64,000 bases of DNA. It comes from a virus. The notes under the pieces were generated by a model. It made no database searches. It was not told where the DNA came from and saw only the letters and a program-made list of their open reading frames with translations. The stretch covers positions 1 to 64,000 of the IMG/VR virus record IMGVR_UViG_3300042691_044682; one strand, written 5' to 3'. Shown piece after piece: positions 8,142-26,939 of this stretch (within the stretch, counting starts at the first letter, position 1; the number at the start of each line of letters is the position of its first letter). The position numbers and the translations under genes are program-made.

Positions 8142-9683
8142 TCAGCCGAGGGCGGCCTGCACCTGGCTCTGCATGAACTCGAAGAAGCCGAGGTTGCCGC
8201 CGTAGAGGGCGTTGAAGGCGCCGGCGGCCGCGTCGAGCTGGTCGTCGTGCGATCCGTTGGGGAAGGCGCAGAGCTCGTCGATGAACTCCTCGTTCCAGGA
8301 GCCGCGCACCAGGAAGACCTGGCCGGCCTGCATCATGGAGGCGAGGCCGCGGGCGCGGGTCGCCTTGTCGCCGGACTCCTTCTCGATCTTCACCGTGTAG
8401 GGGGCGAGGAAGCGCACCATGGCCTGGGCCTGTGCGACGCCGGCCTGGCCGGGGTCCTGCGGGATCCAGATCGGCACCGCCATGCCGTCGGCCTGGGCGG
8501 TGGCCTTGATGGCTGAATCCACCTGCGCCGGCGTGTCGCGCAGGCGCAGCGCGTGCTCGATATAGACGCGGCCGATCTTGTCCTTGGAGGCGCGGACGCC
8601 GGCGGTCCAGTCGGGGTCCTTGCCCGGCTCGGGGACGGTGGCGGCGAGGTCCCAGCGGCGCAGGCGCCCCATGGCGTCGGCCGGGACGGCATCGACGAAC
8701 TGGAACCAGCCCCGCTTGAACAGGCCGCCATCGCGCGGGCCGGGGCGCTGCTGCAGCTGGCCGGCGACGGCGTATTGCCCGAGCGCACGCTCGAGGCTCT
8801 TGAGGGCGTCCTCGCTGATGCGGGTCTTGTGGAGGATCTCGCCCGGCTCGGTGCGAGGGTCCTTCGCGTGGCGGTCCGGATGATCCGGCTCGAACCGCAT
8901 GGGCAGGACCACCTTGTGGTAGCCCCGCTTCATGCACCAGCCCGCGAGGTCCTCGGCGTGGACGCGCTGCTGGATGACCATCTTCACGCCGCGGTCGGGC
9001 TCGTTGAGGCGTGATGGAATGGCCTCGCCCCACCAGAGCAGCACGGAGTTGCGCTCGGCCTCGCTCTCCGCCTTCTGGGCGGGGTGGGGGTCGTCGACCA
9101 TGACGTAGTCGCCGCCGTGGCCGGTGACGTTGCTGCCGGGGGTGCAGGCGAAGCGGTGACCGCCTGCGGTGGTCTCGTAGTAGGTCTTGTTGTCCTGGTC
9201 CTTGACGATGGTGACGCCTGGGTGGCGCATGCCATCGGACAGGATGGTCGCGGCGACGTAGGCGGAACCGGCGCCCCAGCGCTTCTGGTACCAGGTGCTC
9301 TTCACGAGCCGGCGGCACTTCACGGCGTCCCTGGTGGCCAGGGTCATTTCGTTGGAGCCGCAGAGGAACTTGGCGGAGGGGTGCCAGGTCCAGACCCAGG
9401 CCGGGAAGGCCACGGACATGATCTGGGACTTGAGGGAGCGCGGCGGGATGCAGAAGACCGCCTCGCGGTGCTGCCGGCGGGCGACGGCCTCCATTTCCTC
9501 GCAGAGGAGGTCGATGTGCCAGTTCCACAGCAGGTGGGCCGGGTCCATGAAGCGCCAGGCCATGCGCAGGAAGGCGCCGAAGCGGCGCGGGCCGAGGGTG
9601 GCCTCGAGGGCGATGCGCTCGGGGCTATCGAGGGAAGCCAGACGGCGCGTTCGCGGGGGAACGATCGCGGCGATCTGGTTCAT
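8142..9683 (-). CDS. terL: Terminase large subunit
   Basis: 513 residues from ATG 9683, which overlaps the stop of the upstream tiny gene (ATGA). ATPase part: Walker A-like PPRSLKSQIMS, and VMVDDPHP as Walker B with following acidic residues. Nuclease part: RRWDLAAT, and the C-terminal HDDQLDAAAGAF that closes the RNase H-like nuclease of TerL proteins. TerL pumps DNA into proheads through the portal and cuts the concatemer. A longer upstream extension of the frame is Arg-rich shadow and was rejected. Confidence 0.93.
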   Translation of the reverse strand: MNQIAAIVPPRTRRLASLDSPERIALEATLGPRRFGAFLRMAWRFMDPAHLLWNWHIDLLCEEMEAVARRQHREAVFCIPPRSLKSQIMSVAFPAWVWTWHPSAKFLCGSNEMTLATRDAVKCRRLVKSTWYQKRWGAGSAYVAATILSDGMRHPGVTIVKDQDNKTYYETTAGGHRFACTPGSNVTGHGGDYVMVDDPHPAQKAESEAERNSVLLWWGEAIPSRLNEPDRGVKMVIQQRVHAEDLAGWCMKRGYHKVVLPMRFEPDHPDRHAKDPRTEPGEILHKTRISEDALKSLERALGQYAVAGQLQQRPGPRDGGLFKRGWFQFVDAVPADAMGRLRRWDLAATVPEPGKDPDWTAGVRASKDKIGRVYIEHALRLRDTPAQVDSAIKATAQADGMAVPIWIPQDPGQAGVAQAQAMVRFLAPYTVKIEKESGDKATRARGLASMMQAGQVFLVRGSWNEEFIDELCAFPNGSHDDQLDAAAGAFNALYGGNLGFFEFMQSQVQAALG

Positions 9684-9811
9684 CCGGAGTTTTTCGTACG
9701 CCCCCAGATGGCGTGGTGGGCGAGGGCGCCGAGGCCGAAGCCGCTGAGGAAGATCACCCCGGCGATCAGCGCGAGCTCCCAGAGCATGTCGGCAAGGATC
9801 GCGTTGGGCAT
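9680..9811 (-). CDS. Tiny single-pass membrane protein before terminase
   Basis: 43 residues: a short N-terminus, one hydrophobic segment (LALIAGVIFLSGFGLGALA) and a short basic tail ending KNSG. GGAG lies 11 bases before ATG 9811. The stop overlaps the terminase start by ATGA, so translation is probably coupled. The reading was made by translating the minus strand directly. Function unknown; a small holin-like or envelope role is conceivable. Confidence 0.6.
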   Translation of the reverse strand: MPNAILADMLWELALIAGVIFLSGFGLGALAHHAIWGRTKNSG

Positions 9812-9902: not shown

Positions 9903-10070
9903 CTATTTCGATGTGGACCGCGAACGCAGAGCTGCCGCCGCCGCCTGCCCCGCCCCATAGACCATCGCCGCCGGCAGCATCACCACCAGGACGAAGCCGA
10001 CGAAGGCCACGGTGAAGGCGGTCTCCGCCACGCGCTCGGCGGCCGACTGGCGAGGCGGCGGCTGCGTCAT
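9903..10070 (-). CDS. Tiny membrane protein
   Basis: 55 residues, start ATG 10070 overlapping the stop of the preceding gene (ATGA). After a Pro/Gln N-terminus comes one hydrophobic segment (AFTVAFVGFVLVVMLPAAMV), an Ala-rich stretch and a basic end. Coupling and clean hydrophobic pattern support a real gene. The stop codon region abuts the inverted repeat at 9879. Function unknown. Confidence 0.58.
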   Translation of the reverse strand: MTQPPPRQSAAERVAETAFTVAFVGFVLVVMLPAAMVYGAGQAAAAALRSRSTSK

Positions 10071-10459
10071 CGCCGCGCCCTCTTCTTCGCCGCCGGCTTC
10101 TTCCGTGCCCGGGGCTCTGCCGCCATGGCTAGGTCGTAGGCCGCCTGGGCCGCGGCCGCCATCGCGGGCGTGACACCGGAGATCTCCAGCGCCAGGCGGT
10201 CCTTCTCGACGAACGCGTCGAAGTCTTTCACCGCGAAGAGGAGGTTCTCCAGCACGACCTTCGCCCGCGGCTCGCCACGGCCGCGCGCGTCAATCGAGAA
10301 CTCGATCGCGACCACGCCGCGCAGCGGCACCCAGCCGGCAGGCTCGCCGCACCAGACCAAGACGGCGCTGTTAAACGCAGCACGCCCCCCGACCACGCGG
10401 ATGTCGCCCCGCTCGGGCGGCGGCGAGGGACGGGACGGGTCAAGGATGGTCGGGCTCAT
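10067..10459 (-). CDS. Hypothetical protein
   Basis: 130 residues. Middle part is beta-rich (VLVWCGEPAGWVPLRGVVAIEF), then an Ala-rich helix and a Lys/Arg tail (RARKKPAAKKRARR) that may bind nucleic acid. Coupled with neighbours on both sides: 3 bases from the Acb2-like gene stop and ATGA overlap with the tiny membrane gene downstream. Family not recognised. Confidence 0.6.
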   Translation of the reverse strand: MSPTILDPSRPSPPPERGDIRVVGGRAAFNSAVLVWCGEPAGWVPLRGVVAIEFSIDARGRGEPRAKVVLENLLFAVKDFDAFVEKDRLALEISGVTPAMAAAAQAAYDLAMAAEPRARKKPAAKKRARR

Positions 10460-10462
10460 GGC

Positions 10463-10744
10463 TCAGCCCTCCGTCCGCGGGAACCACGGCGAGACCGGGT
10501 TCGCGATCGCGCGCACCAGGCGGATGGTGGCGTCCTCGTAGGCGGTGCGCGCCATGGCAAGGTCGCGGGCCTGCTGCGGGAAGAGATGCCCCACGGCGCG
10601 CAGGGCGGCTTCGACGCGCCCGTGCAGCTCCGCCGCCTTCGCCTCGAAGGCCTTGGCCTCGTTCATGAGTCGGCGGCAGAGCGCGTCGATCTCGGCCTGG
10701 GTCAGATCCCGGTAGCCGGTGATCTTGGTGTGCTGGTCCTTCAC
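10463..10744 (-). CDS. acb2: Acb2-like anti-CBASS protein
   Basis: 93 residues with the hallmarks of the Acb2/Tad1-hairpin family: an N-terminal KITGYRDLTQAEID, two long helices, and a C-terminal ARTAYEDATIRLVRAIANP. Acb2 proteins of phages form hexamers that sequester cyclic di- and trinucleotide messengers made by CBASS immunity. That this copy does so is inferred from family resemblance; length (~90-100) also fits. It sits in an operon of small unknown genes on the minus strand, a plausible anti-defence patch. Confidence 0.75.
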   Translation of the reverse strand: MKDQHTKITGYRDLTQAEIDALCRRLMNEAKAFEAKAAELHGRVEAALRAVGHLFPQQARDLAMARTAYEDATIRLVRAIANPVSPWFPRTEG

Positions 10745-10746
10745 GC

Positions 10747-11241
10747 TCAGCCCTCCTTTGCCTTGGTGACGGCGACGGCCGCATCATCCACCGACACGAC
10801 CCCCAGGTTTTTCGCCAGCCCACCCCGAATGGCGCGCGGCGTGTCGCGGCGGGGGCAGATGCCCTGCCGGCAGATAACCTCGTACCCGTCCGGGCACGCG
10901 CAGTTGCCCCCAACCCGCGATATGGCCTGGGCAGAAGGCGGGCGCAGCAGGGCGCCGACCTGGATCTCGTCCCGCATGAGCCAGATGGCGTCGGCGGCGT
11001 GCTTCAGCGCACGCGCCACGGCCTCGGCCCGGCGGCCGTTCTCACCGCGCAGGGGCCGAAGCGGCTGCAGATCAGCCCGGATGGCGTCGATCAGGTGGGC
11101 GGCGTCGCCGAGCGCACAGCGCATCGCCACGGGGTCGTGGCCGACCTTCTCGCGGTACGCCCGCATGGCGGCCAGCGCCTGCTGCTCACGCTGGCCCACT
11201 TGGCGCTCGGCGGGAATCGGATCGTTCGGGTCGTCGCTCAT
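10747..11241 (-). CDS. Hypothetical protein with C-terminal Cys cluster
   Basis: 164 residues from ATG 11241, which overlaps the upstream stop (ATGA); the longer frame upstream is shadow. The first 100 residues are helical. Then CACPDGYEVICRQGICPRR gives four cysteines in 16 residues, a possible metal or disulphide knot. Ends in KAKEG two bases before the Acb2-like gene. No family recognised. Confidence 0.62.
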   Translation of the reverse strand: MSDDPNDPIPAERQVGQREQQALAAMRAYREKVGHDPVAMRCALGDAAHLIDAIRADLQPLRPLRGENGRRAEAVARALKHAADAIWLMRDEIQVGALLRPPSAQAISRVGGNCACPDGYEVICRQGICPRRDTPRAIRGGLAKNLGVVSVDDAAVAVTKAKEG

Positions 11242-11714
11242 CGCACCCCGAACCTCTGCTTCGCCGCGGCGAGCACCCCGTCCCTGGACGACGCGACGGC
11301 GCGATCGATCGTCACCAGCGAGGCCGGACGACGCGCCCAGGCCGGCAGCCTGATCAGCACCGCGGTCTTGCCCTGCAGCTTCGTCTCCACGGCTTCGGCG
11401 GCCTTGGTCTGCGTCACCTCCATCCAGGGAAAGAGCGGCGTGACGAGCCGCGCCGCCGCGGTGTGCAGGACGTCGCGCAGCTTGCGCCCCTGCGCATCCA
11501 TCTCCGTGGCGGCGCGGATCCGCAGCCAGCCCTCCTGCTCGCCCATGCCCTCCTCCACGACCACGCGCGTTTCGGCGGTCCAGCCGAGCGTGGTGAGGAT
11601 CATCCCCGTGAACAGGATCGAGACGCCGAAGCCCTTGTCCTTCTTCACAATGGACAGGCGCACCTGGTCCTGCGCCCGCCCGGGCAGTGGGAACTCGATC
11701 GGCGCCCAGGTCAT
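11238..11714 (-). CDS. Hypothetical protein
   Basis: 158 residues, mixed alpha/beta. The N-terminal half has several beta strands (VRLSIVKKDKGFGVSILFTG) and the C-terminal half is helical and basic. ATG 11714 overlaps the upstream stop and its own stop overlaps the next start, so it is firmly embedded in the operon. Family not recognised. Confidence 0.62.
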   Translation of the reverse strand: MTWAPIEFPLPGRAQDQVRLSIVKKDKGFGVSILFTGMILTTLGWTAETRVVVEEGMGEQEGWLRIRAATEMDAQGRKLRDVLHTAAARLVTPLFPWMEVTQTKAAEAVETKLQGKTAVLIRLPAWARRPASLVTIDRAVASSRDGVLAAAKQRFGVR

Positions 11715-12142
11715 GCCACCACCGCCGCCGCATAGGTCGCCGGGGCCCGCTTATCCACCGCGAAGCCTCGCGCGCGCAGCCACTCGATGACGTCCTCCTC
11801 GCGGTCCGACGAGAGGCGGTCGAAGAGCGCCAGCACCTGACCCAGCCGGCGATGAACGGCCGGGTAGTTGATATCGACGGACTCCCGCAGGCGGATCAGC
11901 TGCAAGAGGCGGTCGGTTTCCTTCTGGCGGTCCTGCATGCCCCGGCGATAGCCATCGGCTTGGCCACGATAACGCCGGGCTTCGTTTTCGGCCGCCTCCA
12001 GCGCGGCCCGAAGATCGGCCACCAGCACCCCGAGCGCCGTGATCCGCTCCGCCGCCCAGGCGGCGGCCTCGATCACGTCGTCGGAACCGCTCGCGACCCG
12101 CCCAGCGTCACAGAGCAGTTCCATCCTCATGTCGTCGGTCAT
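11711..12142 (-). CDS. Hypothetical coiled-coil protein
   Basis: 143 residues. A long helix (LRAALEAAENEARRYRGQAD through RQKETDRLLQLI) suggests a coiled coil, followed by a compact end with DREEDVIEWLRARGFAVDK. Overlaps both neighbours by a few bases (34 with the upstream frame). No recognised family. Confidence 0.58.
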   Translation of the reverse strand: MTDDMRMELLCDAGRVASGSDDVIEAAAWAAERITALGVLVADLRAALEAAENEARRYRGQADGYRRGMQDRQKETDRLLQLIRLRESVDINYPAVHRRLGQVLALFDRLSSDREEDVIEWLRARGFAVDKRAPATYAAAVVA

Positions 12143-12413
12143 GTTCAGGATCCTCCTCGCTCGTTTCCTCTCCCGGCCCCGGCGCCTCGCCGAGGTCGAA
12201 GGTGATGGTCACCAGGACGCGGCGCCGCCAGCGCATGACGCCCGCCTGGCCGCCGCCGGCGACGACGTCGCCAAGGGTGCGCCAGCCGAGCGCCGGGCCG
12301 CACCAGACGTCGATGCCGGCGCCCAGGCCCTCGAGGTCGCCGCGGATGGTGCCCACGGGGCGCTCGACGTCCTCGCTGGGCGGCTGGAGCGGGGCGAACA
12401 GGTCATCGATCAC
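12108..12413 (-). CDS. Hypothetical protein after a pentanucleotide array
   Basis: 101 residues starting at ATG 12413, the first gene downstream of the 12414-12784 array. It has a beta-rich core (IDVWCGPALGWRTLGDVV; RRRVLVTITFDLGEA) and an acidic tail that overlaps the next gene by 34 bases. Function unknown. Its leader would carry the repeat RNA. Confidence 0.5.
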   Translation of the reverse strand: MIDDLFAPLQPPSEDVERPVGTIRGDLEGLGAGIDVWCGPALGWRTLGDVVAGGGQAGVMRWRRRVLVTITFDLGEAPGPGEETSEEDPEHDRRHEDGTAL

Positions 12414-12784
12414 TGCTCACCCCGCTCCCTGCCGGCGTTGCGGTGCCTTGCCCTGCGAAGCCCTGCCTTGCCTGCGATGCCTTGCGATGCCCAGCCTCGC
12501 CTCGCCTTGCCTTGCCTGCCCTGCCCGGCCACGCCAGACCCAGCCCCGCCAGGCCATGCCTGCCGTGCCCCGCCATGCCCGGCCACGCCGTGCGCCGCGG
12601 TGCCTCGCCTTGCCTGCGCTGCCATGCCCCGCCAAGCCCCGCCATGACTAGCCATGCCTGCGGTGCCCTGCCCCGCCACGCCAGACCCAGCGACGCCTTG
12701 CCTTGCCTGCCCTGCCCGGCCACGCCAGACCGTGCCGTGCCATGCCTTGCCTGCCATGCGGTGGCACGCCTCGCCTAGCCTCGC
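12414..12784. repeat. Pentanucleotide (NNGCC) array 1
   Basis: 371 bases without a credible gene. The plus strand is built of units ending GCC at 5-base spacing (CTTGCC, CACGCC, CATGCC, CTAGCC and so on), with changing first two bases. A roughly 38-base block occurs twice (about 12502-12540 and 12692-12730). A 23-base stretch at 12645-12667 (TGACTAGCCATGCC...) recurs exactly in array 2 at 14204-14226. Frames through it encode only Arg/Ala/Gly/Trp low-complexity peptide, so I treat it as non-coding repeat. Confidence 0.85.
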
Positions 12785-13237
12785 CTAGCCCGGCGCCGCC
12801 TGCGTCGGACCTTCCACCAGCGCCCCCATTGCCGCCTCGATGTGCGGCGCCAGGGACGCGTAGCGGCGGTACCGCTCGAGGACGCGATCGACATCGAGCC
12901 GCATCCGCCGCAGGAGCACCTCCATGTCATCCTCGTCCTGCAGGACGGCGGTGATGGTCCGGTAGGTGTTCCTGGCGACGGTCACGTAGGCGCGGACGGG
13001 CACCAACGCATCGTCCGGCCGCGGCAGCATCGTCACCGCGGCGCGGATCACCCGCCCGGCCTCGATCAGCAGCAGCTTCGCCTGCGCGTCGTCCGCATCC
13101 CAGGTGAAGGCCGCGTGGAGCGCCGTGTTGGAGCTCCGCGCGAAGTCGATCACAGCCTCCTTGGTGAGGACGCCGCCGTTCATCTGGCGGACGACCTCGA
13201 GCTCGGCGAGCTGCGACTGGGTCAGCATCCTGCTCAC
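12785..13237 (-). CDS. Conserved phage protein, unknown function
   Basis: 150 residues from GTG 13237, chosen because GTGA overlaps the upstream stop and AGGAG lies 5 bases before it; ATG 13228 is the alternative. It carries MNGGVLTKEAVIDFAR, an ALHAAFTWDADDAQAK stretch and a C-terminal RRYASLAPHIEAAMG. I recognise this motif set from many siphophage genomes, next to the gene type found upstream here. Function is not known. Confidence 0.7.
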   Translation of the reverse strand: MSRMLTQSQLAELEVVRQMNGGVLTKEAVIDFARSSNTALHAAFTWDADDAQAKLLLIEAGRVIRAAVTMLPRPDDALVPVRAYVTVARNTYRTITAVLQDEDDMEVLLRRMRLDVDRVLERYRRYASLAPHIEAAMGALVEGPTQAAPG

Positions 13238-13926
13238 GGCCGCTCCTGGATCCGGAAGCTGCCCCAGCCGACGCCGGCGCTGTTCTTGCTGTCCGCCCGG
13301 CCCTCGCCGATGCCGACCTGCTCGCCCACCCGCGACATCAGGTTCGCGATGTCGGTGGCGGTGAACTGGTCGGCGTCGAAGCGGACCGTCACGTCCATCT
13401 CCCACTCGCGCCACATGGGCCGGGTGCGGATGTCGATGACCCCCGTCGCGTTGCGGGTGGGCAGGTCGCTGCGGATGGGCTCGGGGCCGAGGATGCGCAC
13501 CAGCGGCGTGCCGTCGATCCGGTCGAAGCCGTGCGGCTCCACGAAGACCGACATCTTCGCCAGCGTCATCTTGAAGTTCACGAGCCGGCAGGCGGAGATC
13601 ATGCCGCTGCGGAAGGCCCCGGCATGGACGCCGTCCCAGCCATCGGTGGAGATGTGCCGGGCCTCGTTGAAGGCGGCGTCGAAGTCCTTCGCGTCGCGCT
13701 TCTTCTTGCCGCGGGCGGTGGACCCGGCGGCCTGCTTCTCCATCATCGCCTGCATGGCCTTCGCGGGGAACCGCGAGATCACCAGCGGCGCGGTGCCGAT
13801 GATGTGGAAGGTCACCATGCGCATGTTGGGCGCGGTGATGGTGATCGGCTGGGCGCCGTCGCCCAGCTCGTCGCCGCGCCCCTTGGCCGATCGCTTGGCC
13901 TTGGCGCCGGCAGTCATCCCATCCAT
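13234..13926 (-). CDS. Conserved phage protein, possible RAMP-like fold
   Basis: 230 residues from ATG 13926 (AAGGA 8 bases upstream). Recognised as a family seen in phages of Proteobacteria: DGWDGVHAGAFRSGMISACR, AKMSVFVEPHGFDR, TRPMWREWEMDV and the C-terminal GIGEGRADSKNSAGVGWG. The Gly-rich loop resembles the loop of RAMP/Cas7 folds, but that link is my inference. It is paired with the 12785-13237 gene by a GTGA overlap, an association known from other phages. Confidence 0.7.
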   Translation of the reverse strand: MDGMTAGAKAKRSAKGRGDELGDGAQPITITAPNMRMVTFHIIGTAPLVISRFPAKAMQAMMEKQAAGSTARGKKKRDAKDFDAAFNEARHISTDGWDGVHAGAFRSGMISACRLVNFKMTLAKMSVFVEPHGFDRIDGTPLVRILGPEPIRSDLPTRNATGVIDIRTRPMWREWEMDVTVRFDADQFTATDIANLMSRVGEQVGIGEGRADSKNSAGVGWGSFRIQERP

Positions 13927-14384
13927 GATGTCGATCCTTCGTTCAGAAGATCCCCGGGCGGCCAATCCGCCTGGGGTGGTACGGGGAGCGGGTTCCAGGC
14001 CCGCTCCCCGTTTTCGTGCCGGCCTCGACCGGCCTGGCCTTGCCTCGCCGAGCCGAGCGAAGCCCGACCGCGCCTAGCCACGCCTGCCGTGCCCGGCCGT
14101 GCCTTGCCAGTCCACGCCCTGCCTGCCGTGCCCGGCCGCGCCAGTCCTCGCCCTTCCAGTCCTAGCCAAGCCTGCCGCGCCATGCCGAGCCCCGCCTGTC
14201 CGTGACTAGCCATGCCTGCGGTGCCTCGCCACGCCCTGCCACGCCTAACCAGGCCTCTACACGCCTCGCCTGCCGTGCCACGCCCGGCCTAGCCCCGCGA
14301 AACGCAGCCAGGCCCCGACACGGCTCAATGAAAGACATTTCAATGTGATCCTGTCCAGCGGAAAAATACATCTAGATGTGTTTT
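13927..14384. repeat. Pentanucleotide array 2 with flanking hairpins
   Basis: 458-base gap. From about 14020 to 14310 the plus strand repeats NNGCC units as in array 1 and shares an exact 23-base stretch with it (14204-14226). Next to the gene at 13926 lie a strong hairpin (13981-14011) and a nested hairpin CCCC-GGCGG...CCGCC-GGGG (about 13954-13980). The far end holds AT-rich palindromes (14328-14385). No credible gene seen. Confidence 0.8.
13981..14014 (+). terminator. Hairpin with T-run, terminator-like
   Basis: Twelve-base arms ACGGGGAGCGGG / CCCGCTCCCCGT around TTCCAGG, followed on the plus strand by TTTTC. The orientation would stop plus-strand transcription entering the minus-strand operon. 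Read on the minus strand it is simply a strong leader hairpin before the 13926 gene. Confidence 0.5.
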
Positions 14385-14385
14385 T
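14362..14385 (-). terminator. AT-rich palindrome after the 14385-15233 gene
   Basis: Centre ACATCTAGATGT is a perfect palindrome flanked by A5 on the left and T5 on the right with one mismatch. On the minus strand it follows the stop codon and ends in TTTTT, as an intrinsic terminator would. A second palindrome ACATT-TC-AATGT lies at about 14335. Both stand out in very GC-rich DNA and could also be protein-binding sites. Confidence 0.5.
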
Positions 14386-15233
14386 CACGCAGGGTCGATC
14401 GGATCCTCCGGCGGCGCCGGCACAGGCGGACGCTCCGTCCCGCCCTCCATGAACTCCACCAAGCGCTGGTACGCCTCCAGCTCCGCCGTCGGCATCTTCG
14501 CGAAGTCCAGCACCAGCTTCCGCTCCGTCTGGGTCACCTCGTGCTGGTGCTCGATCGGCGCCCCATCGACCCCCGACAGCTCCACCCGCTTCGGCCGATC
14601 CTCCATCCCCAGCGCCTTGCGCCGCTGCACCTGGATGCTCTCGGCCAGCCGCGTCAGCGCCGTGATCTTCGACGCGATCGCGTCCTTCCCATCCGCCAGC
14701 ACCTCCAGCACCTCGAGGTCGGGGTCCTTGTGGTCGGTCATCACGAACAGGAGCTTCGTCACGTGCCGGTGCAGCTGGTCGAACGTCTCGGACAGCTGGT
14801 CGATCCGCCGGAGGTCGCGCAGCACCCCCACCTTCATCACCTCGGCCACCCGGTCGATCGTCAGCTCCCGCGCCTCGGCCACCAGCGAGGTGGGCTGATT
14901 ATTTTCCTGATCTTCTGGGTCCGAGGGGTCCGAAAAATCGGACGAATGGTCCGAGCGCTCCTTGGGAGCCAGCTTTTCCCTGCGGTCCGAGGGGTCCGAG
15001 GGCTCGGACTTTGGGCGGCTGGCCTCGTCGTGTTCGAGGACGGCGCGGGCGACGGCGGCTGACTGTGCGGCGGCGAGGGCGGCGGGGGAACGGGCCCAGC
15101 CTTCGCTCACGGCGCGCTTGCGGATGGCCTTTTCGGAGACGTTGAACTTGGCGGCGAGAGCGAGGTTGGAGACTGTCCCCATCTCCCACTCGGCCCGGAG
15201 GGCGAGCCATTCCTCGGGGCTGAGGGCGGGCAT
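14385..15233 (-). CDS. HTH protein, candidate small terminase subunit
   Basis: 282 residues. N-terminal helix-turn-helix (residues ~5-45: WEMGTVSNLALAAKFNVSEK, then AIRKRAVSEGW), a Ser/Asp/Pro-rich linker (~75-112), then long helices. DNA-binding head plus oligomerising helices fit a small terminase, but it lies 4.7 kb upstream of terL rather than adjacent, so a regulator is the alternative. AAGGG sits 7 bases before ATG. A terminator-like palindrome follows. Confidence 0.55.
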   Translation of the reverse strand: MPALSPEEWLALRAEWEMGTVSNLALAAKFNVSEKAIRKRAVSEGWARSPAALAAAQSAAVARAVLEHDEASRPKSEPSDPSDRREKLAPKERSDHSSDFSDPSDPEDQENNQPTSLVAEARELTIDRVAEVMKVGVLRDLRRIDQLSETFDQLHRHVTKLLFVMTDHKDPDLEVLEVLADGKDAIASKITALTRLAESIQVQRRKALGMEDRPKRVELSGVDGAPIEHQHEVTQTERKLVLDFAKMPTAELEAYQRLVEFMEGGTERPPVPAPPEDPIDPA

Positions 15234-26719: not shown

Positions 26720-26939
26720 GCCACAAAGCGAGCCCCCGGCGCCGAAACGCCGGGGGCCGCTGGAGCCTTGCAGTGCCGAGCCCAGCCAAGCCATGCGCTA
26801 CCCCGCCTGGCCTGCCGCACCGGCCACGAGAATCACACAGAACTAGGTTCCTCTCAAGTCGAACGTGCATCCGCACCAACGGATCGCCGCCGCCTCCCCG
26901 GCACCGTCCTTCGAGACGGGAGGCATGGAGAACTGCCCT
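26720..26939 (+). promoter_or_regulatory. Hairpin, short pentanucleotide array and type A2 leader
   Basis: Strong hairpin GCCCCCGGCG/CGCCGGGGGC (about 26733-26758). Then ~55 bases of NNGCC repeats like those at 12.4 and 14.1 kb (26765-26822), CACACAGAACTAGG at 26846, and a type A2 leader with CCTCCC/GGGAGG around CGGCACCG and TCCTTCGAGAC. This is the only place where repeat and leader types meet. Confidence 0.7.

Follow-up and report, generated by a model that had tools for sequence, protein, structure and literature searches.

The described systems closest to the locus reported here are the Acb2 sponges, which act on the cyclic nucleotides of CBASS, and VIPR. For Acb2, the available portion of one review places homologues of the PaMx41 protein in phages PaMx33, PaMx35 and PaMx43, which are naturally anti-CBASS (PMC12043709), and that of a second paper reports that the Y8A substitution in T4 Acb2 disrupts cyclic dinucleotide binding (PMC12657218). 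VIPR was published as a preprint in April 2026, with a second version in June; as set out in its available text, the system comprises Vipr, a RAMP protein mostly of phages, together with vap genes and vrRNAs made up of 9-16 YNNGG repeats and a structured tail (PMC13142463). The same text holds that VIPR reads DNA by NN pairs with one base skipped, mostly the wobble base, that its targets lie mostly in competing phages and satellites, and that it is a weapon against competing phages, not a counter-defence against the host; staggered arrays with overlapping vrRNAs are also mentioned (PMC13142463).

We analysed a stretch of 64,000 nucleotides with a G+C content of 71% (the window), taken from a virus record of 92,321 bases. 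Very probably, this phage carries an Acb2-type sponge gene and a VIPR locus within a single interval between its terminase genes, with one VIPR guide, V6, most likely aimed at serine recombinases. All window features given below lie on the minus strand. One border of the interval is the gene for the terminase small subunit at 14385-15233, which matches PHROG 1206. The other is the gene at 8142-9722, for which a start codon was chosen; from its sequence and its synteny with the small subunit gene, we take it to encode the terminase large subunit (TerL). Loci related by a TerL search hold other genes between the small and large terminase genes, for example a peptidase-like one, and we therefore regard this as an accessory interval, in which acb2 would be one accessory gene. 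By eye, we also noted a small ORF resembling acyl carrier protein (GLDSLDMVDI) between the terminase genes of one viral locus (L034:9719-9988), and a TerL gene apparently split by an intein-like segment and a GIY-YIG-like ORF in another (L041:8234-9924).

The acb2 homologue occupies positions 10463-10744 and encodes a protein of 93 amino acids from a GTG start, which lies 2 bases past the stop of the upstream gene and is preceded by a strong ribosome-binding site, AAAGGAGG. An earlier sequence-only reading had proposed an Acb2-like gene here, quoting a GYRDLTQAEID opening and an LVRAIANP ending; both motifs are present as quoted, and the proposal is upheld by the open reading frame and by Pfam, PDB and tblastn matches. 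The Pfam family Acb2_Tad1_hairpin (PF24729) matched the protein with an E-value of 1.9e-8 and 34.8 bits, the Pfam cut-off being 27, and phmmer retrieved PDB sequences of PaMx33 Acb2 (p26) at E-values of 4.2e-6 and 9.5e-6. With tblastn at E <= 0.01, 39 of 50,697 phage records matched, 35 of them with a query coverage of at least 80%. The closest full-length relatives were those of MR5-kind Pseudomonas phages, at 52.9% identity, and the matches included PaMx43 ORF24 (32.6% identity, E 1e-2). An Acb2 family profile recovered PaMx33 Acb2 in the PDB at an E-value of 1.2e-32 and T4 Vs.4, the T4 Acb2 (PDB 7uq2), at 3.4e-7; the latter was missed by the window sequence on its own. Support for membership of the Acb2 family thus comes from sequence matches to the profile, to single relatives and to PDB entries, as well as from a predicted hairpin, and the gene product is a new member of this known family, with a predicted function. 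In MR5 (MT104468.1) and its relatives the corresponding proteins are annotated as 'NAD/FAD-utilizing enzyme apparently involved in cell division', an annotation that the sequence similarity to Acb2 does not support.

We aligned the window protein with 19 and, separately, with 10 relatives; four relatives were shared, giving 25 distinct ones, and L020, L025 (a 17-residue open frame), the exact repeats L007 and L023, and L019 were left out. Met1, Gln4, His5, Ile8, Tyr11, Arg12 and Leu14 were invariant in both alignments, as were the Asn and Lys of MNxxK, Arg78 and Pro83. T4 Tyr8 would correspond to the window Tyr11 if the deposited chain carries one extra residue. Two features set the window protein apart and could mean that it binds no cyclic nucleotide or a different ligand: a five-residue insertion, ALCRR, between Asp20 and LMNEAK, which occurs in none of the 25 distinct aligned relatives, and a C-terminus that reads NPVSPWF in place of QPxxF. 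The insertion falls in helix 1, between Tyr11 and the conserved MNxxK, where it would rotate the helix. In addition, the T4 Acb2 residue that stacks on the ligand, Phe82, would on the same numbering align with Ala in the window protein, and the pockets are therefore not identical, although PaMx33 Acb2 has Ala instead of Phe here too. We nevertheless consider a loss or change of binding unlikely, since every invariant family position is kept, Tyr11 and the Asn and Lys of MNxxK included, the open frame is intact and hairpin length varies widely in the family; moreover, the window C-terminus resembles the ends of the MR5, MKPT02 and HHBS14_1 proteins, which also finish in PxxP(W/F). As an Acb2-type sponge, several copies of the protein would assemble and hold the cyclic di- and trinucleotides that the CBASS of the host produces, and the suicide effector of CBASS would thereby stay untriggered.

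AlphaFold2, run with 20 sequences, predicted helices at residues 16-50 and 56-81 of the window Acb2, with a mean pLDDT of 86.5 and a weak N-terminus. Foldseek returned no match for this model at E <= 0.001. In a second look it could be superposed on 8h2x (Z 7.5, rmsd 3.3, 68 aligned), 7uq2 (Z 7.8, rmsd 7.8, 82 residues) and 8h2j (Z 7.1, rmsd 7.3, 82 residues), each time with unrelated hairpins ranked alongside, in the case of 8h2x at like Z. Structure comparison of a hairpin of this type is non-specific, and we did not count it as proof. The comparison with known Acb2 structures that the sequence-only reading had suggested delivered a helical hairpin as a prediction, but neither Foldseek nor the second look gave a specific match.

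Beyond acb2 and the VIPR genes, the interval holds five small neighbouring ORFs and one ORF of 55 amino acids. The five lie at 12108-12413 (101 aa), 11711-12142 (143 aa), 11238-11714 (158 aa), 10747-11238 (163 aa, directly upstream of acb2) and 10067-10459 (130 aa, directly downstream). Gaps among the seven ORFs from 12413 to 9903 range from -35 to +3 nt, and two longer gaps, 371 and 458 nt in length and occupied by GGCNN arrays, interrupt the wider gene series. Searches of Pfam, PHROG, NCBIfam and PADLOC gave nothing for or against an inhibitor role for the five small genes, and the products of four of them (11711-12142, 11238-11714, 10747-11238 and 10067-10459) had zero tblastn matches in the 50,697 phage records. 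A weak relative of the 10067-10459 protein is encoded just upstream of TerL in L032, a related phage locus in which acb2 was not detected. The neighbours had been described beforehand as small, coupled and unknown, and small and close-packed they are, but the gaps are filled with arrays, and two of the genes together with those arrays make up VIPR. For these two, the accompanying suggestion that the neighbours are candidate inhibitors was not borne out. The suggestion can be extended to the whole of 10067-13926, which would then be an anti-defence island whose unknown genes each encode another inhibitor of host immunity; the genes are indeed close-packed and co-oriented with acb2 in their middle, and the sequence-only reading took it as a premise that anti-defence genes cluster. 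We regard such an island as quite improbable, because the only two identifiable genes belong to VIPR, which is not an inhibitor, because related phages place other genes in the same interval, and because no neighbour matched a known defence or Acb family in Pfam, NCBIfam or PADLOC (zero PADLOC matches for the eight genes scanned, in a resource that covers defence rather than anti-defence genes).

The two genes identified as VIPR are a vipr homologue at 13234-13926 (230 aa) and a partner gene at 12785-13237 (150 aa, a candidate vap), which overlap by 4 nt (a gap of -4 nt). Both had PHROG matches only of unknown function, and the partner protein had no Pfam name. A search with the 13234-13926 protein yielded 18 viral loci, and the partner is conserved next to the vipr relative, following it in 17 of the 18 by tblastn and in all 18 by profile. 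Ahead of the fold search, a GxGEGR..GxGWG motif was read as a G-loop. The AlphaFold2 model of the protein (15 sequences; mean pLDDT 79.2) has a RAMP fold of the Cas7 type as predicted, and a Foldseek search against the PDB returned five entries at E <= 0.001, all of them type III or type VII CRISPR RAMP subunits (best E 1.5e-4). Likewise, all 50 entries listed by VIA-align 2 were type III or type VII CRISPR RAMP complexes or gRAMP, the best with a Z of 9.5 and an rmsd of 4.0 over 130 aligned residues. A profile of the RAMP family matched SUSP1 Vipr (PDB 36pp) at an E-value of 9.5e-7, compared with 0.011 for the 13234-13926 sequence by itself. Given this profile match and the description in the preprint, we identify the window system as VIPR, a kind already described.

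The vipr/partner pair is flanked by GGCNN arrays, one on each side and on the same strand as the genes. The upstream GGYNN array (14020-14314), a putative set of vrRNA guides, is composed of units that end in GGCA or CGCA. Its last unit, V6 (14025-14084), which is the guide adjacent to vipr, has twelve NN pairs and is directly followed by a 12-bp hairpin at 13981-14011 (-27 kcal/mol, z -2.9), a candidate vrRNA tail. The downstream GGYNN array (12443-12795), with GGY/NN repeats, is followed by a hairpin at 12386-12428 (z -5.2), which extends into the start of 12108-12413 and has the stem core GGGAGCGGG in common with the first hairpin. Within the downstream array GGTCTGGCGTGGCCGGGCAGGGCAGGCAAGGCAAGGCG occurs twice, at 12518-12560 and 12709-12751, and two guide units therefore have ends in common. 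Runs of five GGC at 5-nt spacing, with at most one mismatch, were found 55 times in the window compared with a mean of 0.49 in shuffled sequences, and 51 of the 55 fell inside the two arrays. A short, weak GGCNN-like stretch was also seen outside the VIPR locus, at 26765-26821. Two other explanations of the arrays, recognition of GGC triplets by a TRAP-like ring and mimicry of a CRISPR array, were considered and dropped, as VIPR, even from the available part of the preprint, explains them better.

We examined the association between arrays and genes in both directions. Among loci fetched for their genes, arrays were present in 8 of 18 RAMP loci, in 1 of 70 TerL loci and in 0 of 30 Acb2 loci; the single TerL locus (L040) was also the only one of the 70 with a RAMP gene, and across these loci arrays occurred only where a RAMP gene did. 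The reverse test started from the DNA pattern alone, nine GGC at 5-nt spacing, which gave at least 120 stretches in viral contigs. A first profile found a RAMP gene in 36 of the first 80 array loci listed. An iterated profile found one in 86 of 120 array loci among the matches listed, and 84 of the 120 had a Vipr relative with E < 1e-6 and a match spanning half of the profile or more, although these E-values are optimistic because new profile members were drawn from the same array loci. As a control, 100 loci that had been fetched for other genes were searched with the iterated profile; only one had a RAMP gene, and there too an array was present. Detection followed the length of the longest array in the listed loci, with a RAMP gene in 43 of 50 loci with at least 20 matches, 26 of 35 with 12-19 and 17 of 35 with 8-11. 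In the 34 of 120 listed array loci (L120-L239) without a detected vipr relative the arrays were mostly short; seven have long arrays (L136, L144, L165, L175, L187, L195 and L211). The loci without a vipr relative may be truncated contigs, may encode Vipr proteins that are more distant, or may simply contain ordinary repeats. A search of the first 80 array loci listed with the Acb2 profile gave no acb2, no VIPR gene was found in the 30 Acb2 loci, and acb2 and VIPR are not one conserved block.

Arrays also occur in isolated phages. In Mycobacterium phage Donkeykong the array lies just upstream of the RAMP homologue gp49, and an array was present in all eleven F1-type Mycobacterium phages read (L241, L243-L252; Mycobacterium smegmatis), which were taken from 25 matching mycobacteriophage records, some being duplicates of one phage. 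The vipr-like gene and the next gene, both annotated as hypothetical proteins, are located just upstream of the excisionase gene in these phages. Past the array, the alignment blocks of the eleven phages are 97-100% identical, while the arrays differ in whole GGCA-ended units, by one unit between BobaPhett and ByChance and by two between Donkeykong and Brocalys. In some F1-type records short ORFs are annotated within the array. GGCNN arrays were also found in cyanophage Cy-LDV1, and a weak one in a Rhodoplanes plasmid record was seen by a looser test and missed by the stricter association test.

These data bear on whether the arrays could be simple-sequence DNA that slippage has multiplied in genomes of high G+C content and that has no guide role. 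The listed pattern loci without a vipr relative would fit such an origin, as would the two guides, U5 and V2, for which no target was found. Against it stand the frequency of Vipr relatives in array loci compared with other loci, the orientation of arrays (in the loci fetched, 184 of 187 arrays with a RAMP gene within 3 kb lay on the same strand as the nearest one), the variation of mycobacteriophage arrays by whole units, and the occurrence of the same repeat in the published system, as seen in the available text (PMC13142463). The spacing within 101 array segments also speaks against it: 5 nt occurred 2,665 times, 10 nt 274 times, 4 nt 223 times, 9 nt 44 times and 6 nt 10 times, so that shifts of +1 are nearly absent, the 4-nt step was GGCA in 201 of 223 cases, and the distance between 4-nt steps was 4 modulo 5 in 154 of 167. 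We therefore judge slippage highly improbable and treat the arrays as putative guides.

Finally, we searched for targets of the guides. The V6 pattern consisted of the ten inner NN pairs with one skipped base, that is, 20 fixed bases, and matched exactly in ten viral contigs. All ten matches lie in frame at YARFSS(D/E)(N/K)QR with the skipped base at the third codon position, the twelve NN pairs of V6 being codon positions 1 and 2 of VYARFSSDNQRE. YxRxS is the catalytic motif of serine recombinases. The protein encoded at one target (L254) has the Pfam domains Resolvase, Recombinase and Zn_ribbon_recom, and the other nine contigs were assigned by the motif and the surrounding sequence. Among the outer pairs, which were not part of the pattern, the first matched in 3 of 10 contigs and the last in 7 of 10, with all twelve pairs matching in three contigs. 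No match in the viral contigs was obtained with a 2-nt skip, used as a control, or with U5 (nine pairs) and V2 (ten pairs), so one of three guides matched. The V6 site was absent from the phage's own record at up to three mismatches and from the two genomes searched, and U5 (ten pairs) had no match in the phage's own record; the 12-pair site was found in none of 398 Pseudomonadota genomes at up to one mismatch. A tblastn search with the L254 enzyme revealed no convincing serine recombinase in the phage's own record. We also compared the guides of the fetched loci with the loci themselves (2.7 Mb, repetitive patterns removed). Matches of 8 pairs numbered 1, 5, 1 and 1 at skips of 0, 1, 2 and 3, with 1.7 expected, and at 7 pairs the 2-nt skip gave the most, 54 versus 36 for the 1-nt skip, with 30.8 expected; the 1-nt skip thus showed no clear excess within the loci.

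The V6 matches could be a coincidence that reflects a common protein motif. The lack of targets for U5 and V2, the use of three target patterns, and the G+C content of the target contigs (41-54%, compared with 71% in the window) would all be compatible with this, and the ten matches are related sequences and therefore not ten independent events. We give coincidence a small but real chance, bearing in mind that twenty bases were fixed, that every match fell in one motif and kept its reading frame, the wobble base being the one skipped, and that outer pairs agreed beyond the pattern while the 2-nt-skip version matched none of the viral contigs. The most likely target of V6 is the catalytic motif of large serine recombinases. 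Since the G+C content of the target contigs is unlike that of the phage, the targets would indicate an enzyme family rather than an actual rival, and as the base left unread is the wobble position of each codon, a single guide would cover many synonymous versions of the motif. By the model in the available text of the preprint, Vipr would bind vrRNAs via GGY, and the NN pairs would read double-stranded DNA with one base skipped, leading to repression of rival genomes (PMC13142463). If the V6 pairs correspond to codon positions 1 and 2 of the motif, many unrelated integrating elements could lie within reach of a single vrRNA, and synonymous change could not give escape.

Taken together, our results incline us, by a narrow balance, to the view that this VIPR guide is directed at a protein family and not at one genome, and that the phage pairs this broad weapon against rival mobile elements with an Acb2 sponge against host CBASS in a terminase-flanked interval. 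The Acb2 assignment alone would add one more sponge to a large family, and the neighbourhood matters more. VIPR was recovered here independently from raw sequence, with an array-gene association that started from the DNA pattern alone, and one guide now has a candidate natural target in the serine recombinase active site. Whole-unit array change beside a nearly identical gene in Mycobacterium smegmatis phages makes the gain and loss of units open to study in a laboratory host. In the available preprint text, GGCA-ended units and acb2 were not seen, and 'mycobacter' has no occurrence in the main text (PMC13142463). The open-licence PMC literature held no VIPR with acb2, none in the mycobacteriophages named here and no serine recombinase as a VIPR target, and the preprint supplement may list such phages and targets. 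Within the literature searched, the recombinase guide, VIPR beside acb2 in a terminase-flanked interval, and whole-unit array turnover in isolated phages are therefore new.

Compared with known Acb2 proteins, the window protein shares with those of PaMx33 (p26; PDB 8h2j, 8h2x and 8ixz) and PaMx43 (ORF24) the QHxKIxGYRDLxQxEID opening, MNxxK, the hairpin and the RAIA(Q/N)P ending, and differs from them in that it has the insertion after Asp20, its helices are joined by a shorter stretch and its terminal residues are not the QPDSF of the two PaMx proteins. The Acb2-like proteins of Pseudomonas phages MR5, MKPT02 and HHBS14_1 (52.9, 46.0 and 40.2% identity by tblastn) have an RDLAxxRTxxEDA segment and the PxxP(W/F) ending in common with it, whereas they lack the insertion and their tip is about 12 residues shorter. 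The predicted fold of the 13234-13926 protein is also that of the Csm3/Cas7 subunits of class 1 CRISPR. Unlike class 1 CRISPR-Cas, however, the window interval contains neither a cas operon nor CRISPR repeats and has only one RAMP gene, and its units of 5 nt with three fixed bases are unlike class 1 repeats. The VIPR system of Escherichia phage SUSP1 (PDB 36pp), as far as the available description extends, likewise has a RAMP protein, an adjoining partner gene, GGY/NN repeats on both sides and a structured end. The window guides are arranged in continuous arrays of GGCA-ended units, and the staggered arrays mentioned in the available text of the preprint may be the same arrangement (PMC13142463).
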